From Microbacterium immunditiarum (lineage in GTDB: Bacteria; Actinomycetota; Actinomycetes; Actinomycetales; Microbacteriaceae), in the NCBI RefSeq assembly GCF_013409785.1, contig NZ_JACCBV010000001.1:2046001-2110000 (forward strand): a stretch of DNA of 64,000 bases, given 5' to 3'. The translations under genes and the position numbers were made by a program. Shown here piece after piece: positions 1,121-7,209 of the stretch. The notes beneath the pieces were generated by a model. It did not search any database. It worked only from the letters and a program-made list of their open reading frames with translations, and was not told the origin of the DNA. How positions within the stretch are numbered: position 1 is the first letter of the stretch; the number at the start of each line of letters is the position of its first letter.

Positions 1121-2461
1121 ATGTCCCCGCAAGACGCTTCACCGTTCGACGACCTGACCGCCTTCCTCGACAGCGCGCTGTCGGCCGTCGACTGGCAGGC
1201 GGTCGAAGAGTTCTTCGCGACTGTACGGCCGTTCGTTCCGCTGGCGATCGCCGGCATCGTCGTGTGGAGCCTGTGGCTCTACCGCTTCACGCTGTCGCGC
1301 TTCGCCCGGCCGATCCGCAACAGCCATCGCGAGACGACGTCGGTCGTCGTCCCGTCGTTCCACGAGGACCCCGACATCCTCATGAGATGCCTCGACTCGT
1401 GGCGGTCTCAGGACCCTGACGAGATCATCATCGTGCTCGACGTCGCGGACCTCGAGGCGTACGACCGCATCGTCGCGCTGGGGGACCCGCGCGTTCGACC
1501 GATCCTCTTCGAGCACGTCGGCAAGCGGTCGGCGCTGGGCGCCGGCATCCGTCTCGCCCGGTTCGATGTGCTCGTGCTGACCGACTCCGACACCGCGTGG
1601 CGCGACGGACTGCTGCGCGCGGTGCAGATGCCCTTCATCGATCCGCGCGTCGGCGGCGTCGGCACGCACCAGAACGTGTATCAGCGCCGCTCGAGCGTGT
1701 GGCGCCGGGTCGCGGACTGGCTCGTCGACCTGCGCTATTACGACTACGTGCCCGCCATGGGCCGCGCGGGCGCCGTTCCCTGCCTTTCCGGACGGACGGC
1801 CGCCTACCGACGCCGTGCGGTCCTGCCGGTGCTCGACCACCTCGAGAACGAGTTCTTCCTCGGGCGTCGCTGCATCGCGGGTGACGACGGCCGGCTCACC
1901 TGGCTGGTGCTGGCATCCGGTTACCGCACGGTGCACCAGTCGGACGCCCGCGCGCTGTCGATGTTCCCCGACACGCTGCGCGCCTTCGTCAAGCAGCGCG
2001 TGCGGTGGAGCCGCAACTCCTACCGCTGCTACCTCACCGCGATCGCGAAGGGGTGGTTGTGGCAGACGCCGTTCGTCACGAAGATCACCGTGCTGCAGAT
2101 CCTCCTCACCCCGGTCACGATGGGCCTCACGCTCTTCTACCTGCTGTTCGCGCGGCTCGAGTTCACGACGATCGGCATCGTCGGCGTCGTGGGGTGGGTC
2201 ATCATCGGTCGCGGCATCCGCGGGATCTCGCACCTGGCCCGCCACCCAGGCGACATCGTCATCCTGCCGATCGTGGCGCTCACCGTGATCGTGATCGCCC
2301 TTCCCGTGAAGCTGTGGGCGTTCGCGACGATGAACAAGCAGGGCTGGCTGACGCGGAGCGCCACCCAGGTGGGCGGCGACGGCCAGTCGGCCGCGACGCT
2401 CCGTTCGCCGGCCGCCGGCGCGCCGGCCACGGCGCGAGCAGAGGCGGTGACGCAGCGATGA
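1121..2461 (+). CDS. Processive family 2 glycosyltransferase, hyaluronan synthase/NodC type
   Basis: The 446-residue product is a membrane polysaccharide synthase of the type that polymerises a sugar nucleotide and extrudes the chain. It shows the full motif set of processive GT2 enzymes: an Asp at 107 (VLD), DSD at 155-157, GDD at 254-256 and QRVRW at 292-296 (the QxxRW motif). One membrane helix lies at about 38-55 and three after the catalytic domain at about 322-343, 350-368 and 378-395. The start at 1121 is chosen for the AAGGAG four bases upstream; longer in-frame starts add only Arg/Ser-rich residues. It overlaps the next gene by ATGA. The UDP-glucose dehydrogenase in the same operon suggests UDP-glucuronate as one substrate, but the polymer is unknown. 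Confidence 0.85.
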   Translation: MSPQDASPFDDLTAFLDSALSAVDWQAVEEFFATVRPFVPLAIAGIVVWSLWLYRFTLSRFARPIRNSHRETTSVVVPSFHEDPDILMRCLDSWRSQDPDEIIIVLDVADLEAYDRIVALGDPRVRPILFEHVGKRSALGAGIRLARFDVLVLTDSDTAWRDGLLRAVQMPFIDPRVGGVGTHQNVYQRRSSVWRRVADWLVDLRYYDYVPAMGRAGAVPCLSGRTAAYRRRAVLPVLDHLENEFFLGRRCIAGDDGRLTWLVLASGYRTVHQSDARALSMFPDTLRAFVKQRVRWSRNSYRCYLTAIAKGWLWQTPFVTKITVLQILLTPVTMGLTLFYLLFARLEFTTIGIVGVVGWVIIGRGIRGISHLARHPGDIVILPIVALTVIVIALPVKLWAFATMNKQGWLTRSATQVGGDGQSAATLRSPAAGAPATARAEAVTQR

Positions 2462-4281
2462 CCCGCCTGCAGCGCTTCACCGGCACGCTGCTGCTGGTGG
2501 TCGTCATCGTGGCGGCGGCGTTCGTCGCGGGCATCGTGTTCCGCGAGAACCCGTTCGGCGAGTCCTGGGCCGAGGGGCAGACGCAGCAGGACGGCTCGCG
2601 CGACCTCGGCTACGCGGGCGACGCCGAGGCGGAGGCTGCCCTCGTCGCGGCTGAGCGCGAGCGCGTCTCGCTCGTGACGTCGCTCGCGGGCATACTCCCG
2701 TGGCGCTCCGGACACGTCGAGGGCGCGTACCGCCTGCCGACGGCGCCGCTCACGACCCTCGTGCTGCCCGCGCGACAGGACCCCTACACGATCCACGATC
2801 TGCGAGCCCTGTCGCCCGACGCGATCACCGAGCTGCCCGATGGGGCGATCCTGGTGTCGGAGAGCATCGTCGCGCTGCCGCAGGCCGCGCTCGACCTGTC
2901 GGGCGTCCCCGCCGTCAAGCTCGCGAGTACTCCCGAAGGGTTCGCGTCCATCGTCGTCATCGGCGGTGCGCTGCGGGTGGCCGGCGCCGAGGGCGCTCCC
3001 CTCGCGGTGAACAGCTTCGACCCGCGCACGGGCGCGGAGGACACGACGACGGCTGATGGTCGTGCGTACATCCGGGTCCAGAGCGGAACCGTCGACATCG
3101 CGCACGCCGCCTTCGCTCAGCTCGGCTTCTGGTCGGGCGAGACGGGCGGACTCGCGCTGACCGGCGCCGAGGCATCCGATGACCGCCCCGCACTCGCCGA
3201 AGAGTCGACGGATGCCGCGACCGACGCAGCCGCGCCCCTCGTCTCGCCCGACGAGGTGACCTCGACACTCGACGAAGAGGACGCGCGCCTCGGGCCCGTG
3301 AGCGGGTCTGTCCAGCACGCGACGTTCACGGGCAACGCGTACGGACTCTTCGTGGCCGATGCCGCGGGGCTCGCCGTCGGCGATTCGACGATCGACGGCA
3401 GCCTCATCGACGGGCTCGTGCTGCACCGCGACGTCACCGACACCGAGCTCGCCGCGACGACCGTGTCGGCCAGCGCCGGCGACGGCATCGTCGTCGGGCG
3501 CTCGAGCGCGTCCATCGCGATGACCGCCGTCACCGTGACGGGCAACGGCCGCAACGGCATCGCGATCGACGGCCGCGCGCTCGCGCAGGGGCCCAATCCG
3601 GCCGGTTCCTCGACCGCGGGATACGGCGACATCGCGATCGTCGAGTCGCGCATCGCCGACAACGCGCGCTACGGCGTCGAAGTCAGCGGCGCGCGCGACG
3701 TCTCGATCGCCGACAGCGACATCGCGGCCGGCATCGTCGGCGTAGTGGTCGACGATGCCGCGACCCTCGTCACGATGACGGGCAACACGATGTCGCACCA
3801 GCAGCGGCAGTCCATCGCGCTGCGGGACGGCGCCTCGGAGGTGGGCATTCGCGACAACGTCCTGTCGTCGGTCGGAACCGGCGTGCACCTGCATGACGCG
3901 ACGGCGGACATCCGCGACAACCGGTTCGCGGACATCTCGCAGCACGCGGTGACCCTCGTCGGTCACGCGAGCGGAACACGCATCGTCGGCAACGTCATCG
4001 CGGGGCACGGCACGACCGCCGTGCACGACGATGCCGTCGGCGGATACGCGGCGCGCAACGACCTCGAGGGCTGGTCGCCGCCCGTCACCCCGCGTTCGGT
4101 GCTCGAGACGTTCGCGCAGCCGCTGACTCTCATCTGGACGGCGCTCGGCGTGCTCGTGGTCATCACGGCGCTCACGCGCCGCAAGAGCCCGCCCATCCGC
4201 CATCCGTATCCCGAGCACATCCCGCTCACCCAGCTCACACGGGGGATCGTTCCCCCCGAGTCGATCCGGAGGACACAGTGA
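2458..4281 (+). CDS. Membrane-anchored right-handed beta-helix protein
   Basis: This 607-residue protein has an uncleaved-looking N-terminal membrane helix (about 8-25), a long extracellular part and a second helix at about 555-573 followed by RRK and a 30-residue tail, so both ends probably lie inside the cell. The centre has many short NxI/DGI-type coils (TGNGRNGIAI, NARYGVEVSG, TGNTMSHQQ) typical of right-handed beta-helix folds such as NosD and alginate C5-epimerases. Its translation is coupled to the upstream synthase (ATGA) and to the downstream lipoprotein gene (GTGATG). Likely roles are binding or modifying the exported polysaccharide, for example as an epimerase or lyase; no catalytic residues can be fixed by eye. 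Confidence 0.75.
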   Translation: MTRLQRFTGTLLLVVVIVAAAFVAGIVFRENPFGESWAEGQTQQDGSRDLGYAGDAEAEAALVAAERERVSLVTSLAGILPWRSGHVEGAYRLPTAPLTTLVLPARQDPYTIHDLRALSPDAITELPDGAILVSESIVALPQAALDLSGVPAVKLASTPEGFASIVVIGGALRVAGAEGAPLAVNSFDPRTGAEDTTTADGRAYIRVQSGTVDIAHAAFAQLGFWSGETGGLALTGAEASDDRPALAEESTDAATDAAAPLVSPDEVTSTLDEEDARLGPVSGSVQHATFTGNAYGLFVADAAGLAVGDSTIDGSLIDGLVLHRDVTDTELAATTVSASAGDGIVVGRSSASIAMTAVTVTGNGRNGIAIDGRALAQGPNPAGSSTAGYGDIAIVESRIADNARYGVEVSGARDVSIADSDIAAGIVGVVVDDAATLVTMTGNTMSHQQRQSIALRDGASEVGIRDNVLSSVGTGVHLHDATADIRDNRFADISQHAVTLVGHASGTRIVGNVIAGHGTTAVHDDAVGGYAARNDLEGWSPPVTPRSVLETFAQPLTLIWTALGVLVVITALTRRKSPPIRHPYPEHIPLTQLTRGIVPPESIRRTQ

Positions 4282-5333
4282 TGAACCGAAAGTCCCACGC
4301 CCCGCCGCTGATCGTCGCGGCGCTCGCCCTGCTCGCGCCCCTCGCCGGGTGCGCGTCGGGTCCGGCATCCGGCGGCAGTCCATCGGGTGCGCCGCCGTCG
4401 CCGACCCCGACGGCCCCCGCACCCGCGGGTGGTGCCGCCGAGGTCGAATGCGAGGACGCGACCGCCGAGCCGACCACGACCCAAGAGCTGGAGGATGCGC
4501 TCGACGCCGCCCAGCCCGGCGACGTGATCGCGCTTCAGCCGGGCACGTACGAGGGCGAGTTCGTCGCCTCGGCGCAGGGCACGCAGGACGCTCCCATCAC
4601 GCTGTGCGGGCCCGAGGATGCGATCCTCGACGGCGGCGCGGTCGACGGAGGTTACGTGCTGCACCTCGACGGCGTCTCCCACTGGATCGTGCAGGGCTTC
4701 ACGGTGCGCAACGGCCAGAAGGGGATCATGGCGGATGCCACGACCCACACGACGATCCGCGGCATCACCGTGACCCACATCGGCGACGAGGGCATCCACC
4801 TTCGCGCCGCGAGCACCGACAACCACGTCGTGGGCAACACCGTCGGCGACACCGGGCTGCGCAAGCCGAAGTTCGGCGAGGGCATCTACATCGGCTCGGC
4901 CGAGAGCAACTGGTGCGACATCACCGGCTGCGAGCCCGACCGCAGCGATCGCAACGTGATCGAGGGCAACACCATCTCGGGCACGACGTCCGAGAGCGTC
5001 GACATCAAGGAGGGCACGAGCGCGGGCGTCCTGCGCGGAAACACCTTCGACGGCTCGGCGATCACGGATGCCGACTCGTGGGTCGACGTGAAGGGCAACG
5101 GGTGGCGCATCGAGGGCAACGAAGGCACGTCGTCGCCCGGCGACGGGTTCCAGACGCACGAGATCCTCGACGGCTGGGGCACCGACAACGTCTTCGCGGG
5201 CAACGTCGCGAACCTCGAAGGCCCCGGCGACGGAGTGGCGTTCGCGTTCGAGCCCGAGCGCGGCAACGTCCTCCTGTGCGACAACGAGGTCTCGGGCGAC
5301 CGAGAGCTGAGCAACGTCGAGTGCCGCGAGTGA
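4281..5333 (+). CDS. Secreted beta-helix lipoprotein
   Basis: The product begins with a lipoprotein signal: a basic start, a hydrophobic stretch and the lipobox LAGC with the lipidated Cys at residue 24. A Gly/Ser/Pro/Thr linker follows, then a beta-helix domain with an N-terminal cap of the type seen in pectate lyase and DUF1565-like proteins (LEDALDAAQPGDVIALQPGT) and repeated N-G/N-x-I turns (VRNGQKGIM, VIEGNTISG). Several paired Cys may form disulfides outside the cell. GTG at 4278 and ATG at 4281 are both possible starts after GGAGG at 4268-4272. It is the third gene of the putative polysaccharide operon; a polysaccharide lyase or epimerase role is inference. Confidence 0.75.
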   Translation: MNRKSHAPPLIVAALALLAPLAGCASGPASGGSPSGAPPSPTPTAPAPAGGAAEVECEDATAEPTTTQELEDALDAAQPGDVIALQPGTYEGEFVASAQGTQDAPITLCGPEDAILDGGAVDGGYVLHLDGVSHWIVQGFTVRNGQKGIMADATTHTTIRGITVTHIGDEGIHLRAASTDNHVVGNTVGDTGLRKPKFGEGIYIGSAESNWCDITGCEPDRSDRNVIEGNTISGTTSESVDIKEGTSAGVLRGNTFDGSAITDADSWVDVKGNGWRIEGNEGTSSPGDGFQTHEILDGWGTDNVFAGNVANLEGPGDGVAFAFEPERGNVLLCDNEVSGDRELSNVECRE

Positions 5334-5401
5334 GCGGCCGCGGCATCCGCAACCATTCCCGACCCGGTTTCGAACACCGGACGCAGAGCAAGGAGACACC
5401 C

Positions 5402-6799
5402 ATGACGACCGACCTCTCGACGCAGACCGCCCGACATCCGCAGCGACTGACCGTCGTCGGCCTCGGCTACCTCGGCGCCACGCATGCCATCTGCATGGCC
5501 AAGCTCGGACACCGCGTCGTCGGAGTCGACGTGGACCCCGACAAGGTCGCGGCGCTGCGGAGCGGTGTCCTGCCGTTCCACGAGCCCGGACTCCAGGAGC
5601 ATCTCGACGAGATGCTCGCGACCGGGCGCATCGCGTTCACAGCCGACCTCGCGCGGGCCGCGGACTTCGCCGACACGCATTTCGTGTGCGTCGGCACGCC
5701 GCAGAAGGACGGAACGAATGCCGCAGACCTCGGGTTCGTCGAGGCCGCGGTCGACGCTCTCGCGTCGCGCATCGAGCGCAGGGCGCTCATCGTCGGCAAG
5801 TCGACGGTCCCCGTGGGCACGGCCCGCCGCCTCGCGGAGCGCGTCGCGGCGCAGTCGCGACCGGGCGCCGACATCGAGGTCGCGTGGAACCCGGAGTTCC
5901 TGCGCGAGGGCTTCGCGGTCGAGGACACCCTGTGCCCCGACCGGCTCGTGTTCGGCGTCGACTCGGACTGGGCGCTCGACCGGCTGATCGACGTGTTCGA
6001 CCCCGTGCTGGGTGCCGGGACGCCGGTCATCGTGAGCGACCTCGCCACGGCCGAGCTCGTGAAGGTCGCGGCGAACGCGTTCCTCGCGACGAAGATCTCG
6101 TTCATCAACGCGGTGGCCGAGGTGTGCGAGGCGACGGGGGCCGACGTGGGTCAGCTCGCGGATGCCCTGGGCCGCGACCCGCGGATCGGGAGCCGGTTCC
6201 TCAAGCCCGGTCTGGGCTTCGGCGGCGGGTGCCTGCCGAAGGACATCCGCGCGTTCGCGCATCGCGCCGAGGAGCTCGGCGTGGGCCGGGCGGTCGCGTT
6301 CCTGCACGAGATGGACGAGATCAACCAGCGCCGGCGCGAGCGCATGGTCGACGTCGTGCGCGAGTTCGCCGGGGGAGACCTCGCGGGCACACGCGTCGCG
6401 GCCCTCGGCGCAGCGTTCAAGCCCGACTCCGACGACGTGCGCGATGCGCCGGCGCTCGAGGTCGCGCGCATGCTGTCGATGGAGGGCGCCGAGGTGCGTG
6501 TGTACGACCCTGCCGCGGCGGAGAACGCGCACCGCACGTACCCCGACCTCGACTACGCCGCCTCGCTCGACGAGGCGACCCGCGGCGCGGACGTCGTGGC
6601 GCTGCTCACCGAGTGGCCCGAGTTCGTCGACGCCGATCCCGCCGAGCTCGCCCGCAACGTGCGGCAGCGGCGAGTCGTCGATGGTCGCCGCGTGCTCGAC
6701 GCCGAGCGGTATGTGAACGCCGGGTGGGAGTACCGCGCGCTCGGTCAGGCGGAGTCGCTGACGCGGACGGATGCCGTCCCGGCGGTCCCGCGCTGGTAG
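5402..6799 (+). CDS. ugd: UDP-glucose 6-dehydrogenase
   Basis: This 465-residue cytosolic enzyme oxidises UDP-glucose twice with NAD+ to UDP-glucuronate. The Rossmann motif GLGYLG is at residues 20-25; the catalytic Cys is C277 in FGGGCLPKD; the Lys of STVPVGT and the AFKPDSDD element of the C-terminal UDP-binding domain are also present. Length is normal for the family. The ATG at 5402 follows AAGGAG at 5390-5395. A 68-nt gap separates it from the lipoprotein gene, and it is taken as the last gene of the polysaccharide operon, supplying the uronic acid donor. A GDP-mannose dehydrogenase cannot be fully excluded by eye, which would point to an alginate-like polymer instead. Confidence 0.85.
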   Translation: MTTDLSTQTARHPQRLTVVGLGYLGATHAICMAKLGHRVVGVDVDPDKVAALRSGVLPFHEPGLQEHLDEMLATGRIAFTADLARAADFADTHFVCVGTPQKDGTNAADLGFVEAAVDALASRIERRALIVGKSTVPVGTARRLAERVAAQSRPGADIEVAWNPEFLREGFAVEDTLCPDRLVFGVDSDWALDRLIDVFDPVLGAGTPVIVSDLATAELVKVAANAFLATKISFINAVAEVCEATGADVGQLADALGRDPRIGSRFLKPGLGFGGGCLPKDIRAFAHRAEELGVGRAVAFLHEMDEINQRRRERMVDVVREFAGGDLAGTRVAALGAAFKPDSDDVRDAPALEVARMLSMEGAEVRVYDPAAAENAHRTYPDLDYAASLDEATRGADVVALLTEWPEFVDADPAELARNVRQRRVVDGRRVLDAERYVNAGWEYRALGQAESLTRTDAVPAVPRW

Positions 6800-6828: not shown

Positions 6829-7209
6829 TCAGGCATCCGTCGCCATCGGGCTTCCCACCCGCACGAGATTGCCGCTGCGATCGACGACGGCGAACTCGCG
6901 CATGCCGTAGTCCGTGTCGGCGATGCCCGTCATCCGGCTGCCCGTCGACGGGTCGGCGACGACCACGCCCTCCCACTCCCGGAACACCGCGTCGGCGTCG
7001 TCCACGTAGAGGTAGCACATGGACGCGGTGCGGAAGGGATCGACGGATGGGTCACCGGAGAAGTGTAGCTCCGCGCTGCCGCGTCCGAGGATGAGGTAGT
7101 TCCACTCCTCGGGCGTCGCGCCGCGGTTCTCGAAGCCGAGCGCTCGATAGAACTCGAGCGTCTCCGCGAGGTCGCGACTGAGCAGGATCGGCACCGTGCG
7201 TTCAGCCAT
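6829..7209 (-). CDS. VOC superfamily (glyoxalase/bleomycin resistance-like) protein
   Basis: The 126-residue protein fits a single VOC unit: an opening beta strand plus DLAETLEFYRALGF, the ExxNYLILGRGSAELHF strand and a closing YGMREFAVVDRSGNLVRVG segment. The layout is that of bleomycin-binding proteins, which sequester drug as dimers, but metal-dependent dioxygenase or lyase functions share this fold, so no substrate is claimed. The ATG at 7209 is preceded on its strand by TAGCCT at 7216-7221, six bases away, which indicates a leaderless transcript. It is a single gene facing the end of the polysaccharide operon. Confidence 0.75.
   Translation of the reverse strand: MAERTVPILLSRDLAETLEFYRALGFENRGATPEEWNYLILGRGSAELHFSGDPSVDPFRTASMCYLYVDDADAVFREWEGVVVADPSTGSRMTGIADTDYGMREFAVVDRSGNLVRVGSPMATDA

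Follow-up and report, generated by a model that had tools for sequence, protein, structure and literature searches.

A four-gene actinobacterial operon links a hyaluronan synthase-like glycosyltransferase with AlgG-related and PL31-type beta-helix proteins: a candidate alginate-like machine for a glucuronate-containing polymer

A 64,000-nucleotide stretch of Microbacterium immunditiarum DNA (contig NZ_JACCBV010000001.1, positions 2,046,001 to 2,110,000; hereafter the window), which comes from a single-contig genome of 3.9 Mb (GC 70.7%), carries close to its start a unit of four genes. They code for a processive family 2 glycosyltransferase (GT2), two beta-helix proteins (BH1 and BH2) and a UDP-glucose 6-dehydrogenase (UGD) (Table 1). 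Start and stop codons overlap at both the GT2/BH1 (ATGA) and the BH1/BH2 (TGATG) junctions, and the first three genes are therefore coupled, with UGD beginning 68 bp after BH2. Genes of the opposite strand, an EI24/CysZ gene (26-760) and a glyoxalase-like gene (6829-7209), border the unit. A preliminary description made from the DNA alone had placed the four genes at these positions, three of them coupled, and had read them as a synthase with DSD, GDD and QxxRW motifs, a doubly membrane-anchored beta-helix protein, a beta-helix lipoprotein and a UDP-glucose dehydrogenase. This gene-level picture holds throughout: GT2 has DSDT at residues 155-158, GDD at 254-256 and QRVRW at 292-296, strong hydrophobic windows start at residues 10 and 555 of BH1, a lipobox can be discerned in BH2, and UGD scores 431 bits with the TIGR03026 model (cut-off 189.8).

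Table 1. Genes of the operon and codons of predicted catalytic residues, in positions of the window
Feature	Position	Strand	Details
Processive GT2 synthase, HAS/NodC-like, membrane-embedded	1121..2461	+	446 amino acids; ATG at 1121, AAGGAG upstream
BH1, AlgG-lineage right-handed beta-helix (predicted) with N- and C-terminal membrane segments	2458..4281	+	607 amino acids
BH2, PL31-type polysaccharide lyase lipoprotein (activity predicted)	4281..5333	+	350 amino acids; ATG at 4281; lipobox LAGC (by eye)
UGD, UDP-glucose 6-dehydrogenase	5402..6799	+	465 amino acids
BH1 His323 codon, place of the AlgG DPHD histidine	3424..3426	+	fragment alignment and DPHD-bearing sisters; 78/79 loci
BH1 Arg348 codon, place of the charge-neutralising AlgG Arg345	3499..3501	+	same register as His323; 78/79 loci
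BH2 Tyr203 codon, corresponding to the predicted PsAly catalytic base Tyr184	4887..4889	+	77/77 loci
BH2 Lys243 codon, corresponding to the predicted PsAly catalytic acid Lys221	5007..5009	+	77/77 loci

When species genomes were scanned with a BH1 profile, 205 encoding stretches were recovered, and the best 80 of them yielded 79 loci; as the best of a longer list, these are biased toward nearer relatives of BH1. GT2 lies upstream of BH1 in 77 of the 79 loci and a BH2 homologue downstream in 78, while UGD is found within the stretch in 61 (60 downstream and one upstream), so that the joint conservation on which the preliminary description had hinged its reading is borne out. Both loci without GT2 (L011 and L069) and the single one without BH2 (L047) stop at contig edges. 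The hosts include Microbacteriaceae, Arthrobacter, Cellulomonas, Kineococcus, Kribbella, Streptomyces, Acrocarpospora, Nocardioides, Catellatospora, Actinoplanes, Nakamurella and others, and since the gene order recurs in so many genera it is not a matter of chance. Sampling by BH1 is uninformative on synthases that lack a BH1, and a second search was therefore made with GT2. At E 1e-100 it found 26 places in 20 of the 199 genomes of the window's family (Microbacteriaceae), the window included, with a BH1 homologue downstream at all 26. BH1 was present in 18 of 198 genomes of an order survey, again counting the window. Phylum-wide, the BH1 profile (three candidates scored per genome) found it in 3 of 396 genomes and GT2 was found in 4 of 296, the window's genome being one of them in each case; one of the GT2 genomes (G233) has a weak beta-helix match alongside. 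The window's own genus is sparsely populated: among seven other genomes of that genus in the order survey, one (G181) gave a weak match and six gave none. Thus, the system occurs across Actinomycetota, widespread yet patchy.

GT2 displays the motifs DSDT, SGRTAAYRR, GDDGRLT, QRVRW and NKQGWLTR, which include the hallmarks of hyaluronan synthases (HAS) and NodC, namely DxD, the acceptor DD, QxxRW and the W-x-T-R stretch. DSDT, SGRT, GDDGR, QRxRWSR and NxQGWLTR show little or no variation over 76-77 loci, and the position of K406 is occupied by K in 64, R in 11 and H in one. The protein matches Pfam PF13641 (99.6 bits), and its best NCBIfam model is that of NodC (134.7 bits, falling far short of the equivalog cut-off of 550). 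By PDB profile search its best relatives are Xenopus HAS1 (E 3e-23) and CvHAS (6e-22), and the polysaccharide synthases matched there at E 1e-3 are hyaluronan synthases. The NodC/HAS affinity claimed in the preliminary description therefore stands as far as these relatives go, and needs amending as to placement: in a tree of 16 rows, the nine new GT2s form a group of their own (support 71/91, weak for this key split) apart from NodC and HAS. The branches of this tree are long and its outer order is unsure, with the single Alg8, on the longest branch of all, not cleanly separated. At the site where Xenopus HAS1 has SGPLG, GT2 reads SGRTA.

UGD is closest to 3gg2, which is named as a member of the UDP-glucose/GDP-mannose family (320.8 bits), and to the UDP-glucose dehydrogenase 4a7p (320.4 bits). 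Against the GDP-mannose dehydrogenase 1mfz it scores only 202.4 bits, and a GDP-mannose dehydrogenase was discarded as an identity for it; the earlier proposal of a UDP-glucose enzyme is thus upheld. It is 33% identical to the dehydrogenase of an alginate-like locus of Rhizobium, and a search of its own genome gave it as the sole match at E 1e-20.

BH1 passes the cut-off of the Pfam Beta_helix/NosD models and is predicted to adopt an AlgG-type right-handed beta-helix that includes the N-terminal part of AlgG; a weaker hydrophobic window at residue 422 falls inside the helix. When the fragment 85-351 was searched with Foldseek, the matches at E 1e-3 or better were four AlgG entries only. The alignment of this truncated model pairs BH1 85-351 with AlgG 93-348, placing H323 on the histidine of the AlgG DPHD motif (319) and R348 on Arg345 (AlgG residues being counted from the D317A chain), an equivalence that rests on the alignment end points together with sequence. 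HMMER gave two registers of BH1 on AlgG, and the one chosen is that of the truncated-model alignment and of the DPHD-bearing sister proteins described below. Each of H323, R324 and R348 occurs in 78 of the 79 loci, and H496 in all 79. In AlgG, the proton at C5 is probably abstracted by the DPHD histidine, with Tyr314 holding a water molecule and the arginine neutralising the carboxylate (PMC4444821). The window's BH1 gives no match to the NCBIfam AlgG model NF038177 (cut-off 700 bits). NosD was considered as an identity and rejected: the Pfam NosD model is passed (56.1 bits, cut-off 23.6), but TIGR04247 yields 23 bits against a cut-off of 300, and NosD structures rank far below AlgG. We conclude that BH1 is related to AlgG but, since DPHD is absent, do not assign it to AlgG proper; that it works in an AlgG-like manner is plausible.

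BH2 matches PDB 6KFN, the PsAly enzyme of Paenibacillus FPU-7, at E 6e-44 (1e-61 with a profile). This entry is assigned to PL31 in a table of PMC8618178; an identification of it as the PL36 enzyme Aly36B proved wrong, the published identity being PsAly of PL31. In PsAly, Tyr184 and Lys221 are predicted to carry out catalysis, cations are bound by five side chains, and a further seven residues show complete conservation (PMC6796002). Counterparts of all 12 of these conserved or cation-binding residues are found in BH2, plus His278. K147, H173, R175, E200, Y203, E238, D241, K243 and K271 are retained in 77 of 77 loci, H293 in 76, D265 in 75, Q291 in 74 and D269 in 73. Hence BH2 is a PL31-type polysaccharide lyase with predicted activity. 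The preliminary description had guessed that the beta-helix pair act as epimerases or lyases, and at the level of families both halves of this guess are matched, BH1 being related to AlgG and BH2 belonging to PL31.

A further line of evidence comes from sister operons. Nine rows from seven genomes have shorter, diverged BH1s with intact YGFDPHD and HGFIFSR motifs beside GT2s 55-59% identical to the window's, and a multiple alignment places these motifs opposite DGLVLHR and DGIVVGR in the window's protein. Three such BH1s tested against the NCBIfam AlgG model scored 89.7-95.6 bits, below its cut-off. Two loci of one genome (L160 and L161) are complete, with GT2, BH1 (DPHD), PL31 and UGD following one another on a single strand, their UGDs being 62% and 64% identical to that of the window. 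In L139 GT2, BH1 and PL31 share a strand and are flanked to either side by 59% identical UGDs on the opposite strand, and L138 has the first three genes plus a UGD fragment at the contig edge. In a set of 47 rows, which comprises the window plus 46 places and counts the window and one or two genes twice, 27 BH1s have xxHR in the place of DPHD, nine have DPHD and 11, two of them truncated, are of other kinds. These three motif classes are distributed across L096-L102, L111-L136 and L160-L162. Two DPHD-type synthases (L140:5662-8217 and L143:5489-8482) were also seen to carry three TIG/IPT domains before the GT2 domain.

On balance, we favour the view that the operon specifies a synthase-dependent machine, resembling that of alginate, which produces an acidic, glucuronate-containing surface polymer. 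This view is built on gene order, homology, predicted fold and the conservation of catalytic residues, from which substrate, product and activities are deduced. The dehydrogenase would provide UDP-glucuronate, as expected of its family, which GT2 would polymerise alone or with a second UDP-sugar, moving the chain across the membrane as its homology to hyaluronan synthases implies. BH1, tethered at both ends, would sit at the exit and bind the chain in its groove, where it would most likely epimerise C5 of some glucuronates by means of His323 and Arg348, or else serve as a chain guide alone. The PL31 lipoprotein, tethered outside, would cut the uronate chain by beta-elimination, either setting its length or clearing stray polymer like AlgL. 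Mannuronate and glucuronate differ solely at C2, and PL31 elimination chemistry would therefore suit 4-linked glucuronate. A more specific and distinctly tentative version, to which the complete DPHD operons add slight weight, is that Actinobacteria make a glycosaminoglycan-like polymer of glucuronate and iduronate. Here, C5-epimerases of the AlgG lineage would act on a chain derived from UDP-glucuronate, with the DPHD sisters bearing the classical active site and the xxHR of the window representing a re-tooled variant.

Several observations weigh against this machine or parts of it. Eighteen of the 79 loci lack UGD in the fetched stretch, four of them (L011, L033, L047 and L052) ending at a contig edge, and L048 has just an upstream UGD that is 41% identical. 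Among the DPHD rows, five of the nine (L140-L144, of the window's family) have no UGD in their 11-15 kb stretches, and four of these five also lack PL31 there; the four genomes from which the five rows come all have UGD genes elsewhere. The operon might accordingly be a unit only loosely, with BH2 acting as a lyase for nutrient scavenging or self-grazing and the dehydrogenase serving other pathways, a view that the additional PL31 genes near a number of loci also suit. We regard it as improbable, since PL31 follows BH1 almost invariably, start and stop codons overlap in the window and UGD is the sole copy in its genome at the threshold used. With respect to the active site, BH1 lacks the Asp317 and Asp320 of the AlgG DPHD motif as well as Tyr314, whose place is taken by D318 in the window (D in 57 and H in 16 of the 79 loci), and the Viterbi path of hhalign favours a different register, deleting the DPHD rung. 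BH1s with neither the His nor DPHD adjoin GT2s that are 56-61% (L126-L129, L097/L101) or even 69-72% (L121, L123, L124) identical to the window's, so that the role of partner to the synthase needs no His/DPHD catalysis; the central function of BH1s may be chain guidance, epimerisation having been retained, modified or lost. Given these losses and the constant pairing with GT2 regardless of them (26/26), it is quite possible, if short of probable, that BH1 is a pseudo-epimerase whose AlgG-fold groove shields or guides the nascent chain with no chemistry. The retention of H323 and R348 at AlgG catalytic positions, which would be superfluous for a pure guide, speaks for the epimerase.

As to the chain itself, the hyaluronan synthases matched in the PDB and the chitooligosaccharide synthase NodC as the top NCBIfam model would suit a hyaluronan-like polymer of alternating glucuronate and N-acetylhexosamine rather than a glucuronan. 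We consider this a possibility of real but lesser standing than the broader glucuronate reading, because GT2 groups in a clade of its own, differs from Xenopus HAS1 at the SGPLG site and has as a neighbour a lyase whose nearest characterised relative uses alginate, itself a polymer of uronates, as substrate (PMC6796002). The same account gives the activity remaining in PsAly mutants of the groove residues D188 and K191 as 6.8% and 2.1%, and reports that pectin, heparin, xanthan and gellan are not cut. These two residues are replaced by A/S and N, respectively, in 77 of 77 loci, and in the window's BH2 neither Y195 nor Y244 of PsAly is matched by a Tyr. Both points count against the favoured reading, and because none of the four is retained, the substrate of BH2 may not be alginate. 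That the operon makes true alginate, with GDP-mannuronate polymerised and BH1 and PL31 acting on mannuronan, is accordingly very improbable in our estimate. The presence of AlgG-family and alginate-lyase-family proteins would fit it, but the dehydrogenase is of the UDP-glucose type and only distantly similar to that of the Rhizobium alginate-like locus, and the relatives of GT2 in the PDB and NCBIfam are HAS and NodC, though Alg8 is not cleanly separated in the tree.

In the alginate system (Alg8/Alg44/AlgG/AlgL/AlgD), stray polymer is removed by the lyase and AlgG belongs to the export complex (PMC4444821). The operon resembles this system in combining a nucleotide-sugar dehydrogenase with a GT2 synthase, an AlgG-family beta-helix protein and a uronate lyase. 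It differs in its Gram-positive hosts, a synthase nearer to HAS/NodC, a UDP-glucose dehydrogenase, a PL31 lipoprotein as the lyase, a BH1 that is anchored in the membrane at both ends and has xxHR in place of DPHD, and a four-gene unit devoid of outer-membrane and acetylation genes. With HAS systems, which combine HAS and UGD, it shares synthase motifs and the adjoining UGD, but it adds two beta-helix proteins, has a distinct (weakly supported) synthase clade and, within the unit, lacks a gene for hexosamine supply. At the level of individual proteins, BH2 shares with PsAly (6KFN) the catalytic Tyr/Lys, the cation-binding side chains and the remaining fully conserved positions; it differs as a lipoprotein of a synthesis operon and in that D188, K191, Y195 and Y244 are not kept in the window. 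BH1 shares with AlgG (4NK6), a periplasmic mannuronan C5-epimerase, the N-terminal part, the predicted beta-helix and the His and Arg positions; it departs from it in lacking DPHD and Tyr314, which sister operons retain. Pel-like operons of Gram-positive bacteria likewise direct a synthase-dependent matrix polysaccharide with a different gene set; the sections consulted of the survey reporting them (PMC7112194) contain no system of the present type. A literature search of titles and abstract openings, covering part of the matches for several queries, found no description of the operon. The operon is a conserved variant of the alginate-type machine, undescribed as far as the literature was searched.

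If the proposal is correct, Gram-positive soil actinobacteria would possess an alginate-style make-modify-trim machine running on a HAS-like enzyme and glucuronate, an undescribed acidic matrix polymer would be predicted in species of genera as well studied as Streptomyces, Arthrobacter, Microbacterium and Kribbella, and a bacterial source of iduronate polymers might be at hand. The DPHD, xxHR and neither classes would offer a natural series on how an epimerase turns into something else.

The operon also shows variation in its gene complement, and the gene calls behind the extra PL31 genes, the second BH1s and the duplication in L150 noted here are crude. Of 17 extra frames near the operon, 15 frames, drawn from 14 loci, are PL31-like. 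A further PL31 occurs after or instead of the dehydrogenase in L005, L012, L015, L018, L019, L023, L026, L029 and L073; by eye, several of these have a signal peptide with no evident lipobox and some an extra N-terminal domain. A second, diverged BH1 lies between the first BH1 and PL31 in L055, L080, L081 and probably L049, and L150 has tandem duplicates of GT2, PL31 and UGD on a 19 kb stretch, with a BH1 adjoining each GT2. A complete actinobacterial operon on a contig labelled Vibrio cholerae strain 35D (L058) probably reflects a mislabelled or contaminated assembly. Finally, a Curtobacterium plasmid (L107:7959-12530) carries a related but different set comprising a GT2 (32% identical), a glycosyl hydrolase and a UDP-glucose/GDP-mannose dehydrogenase.

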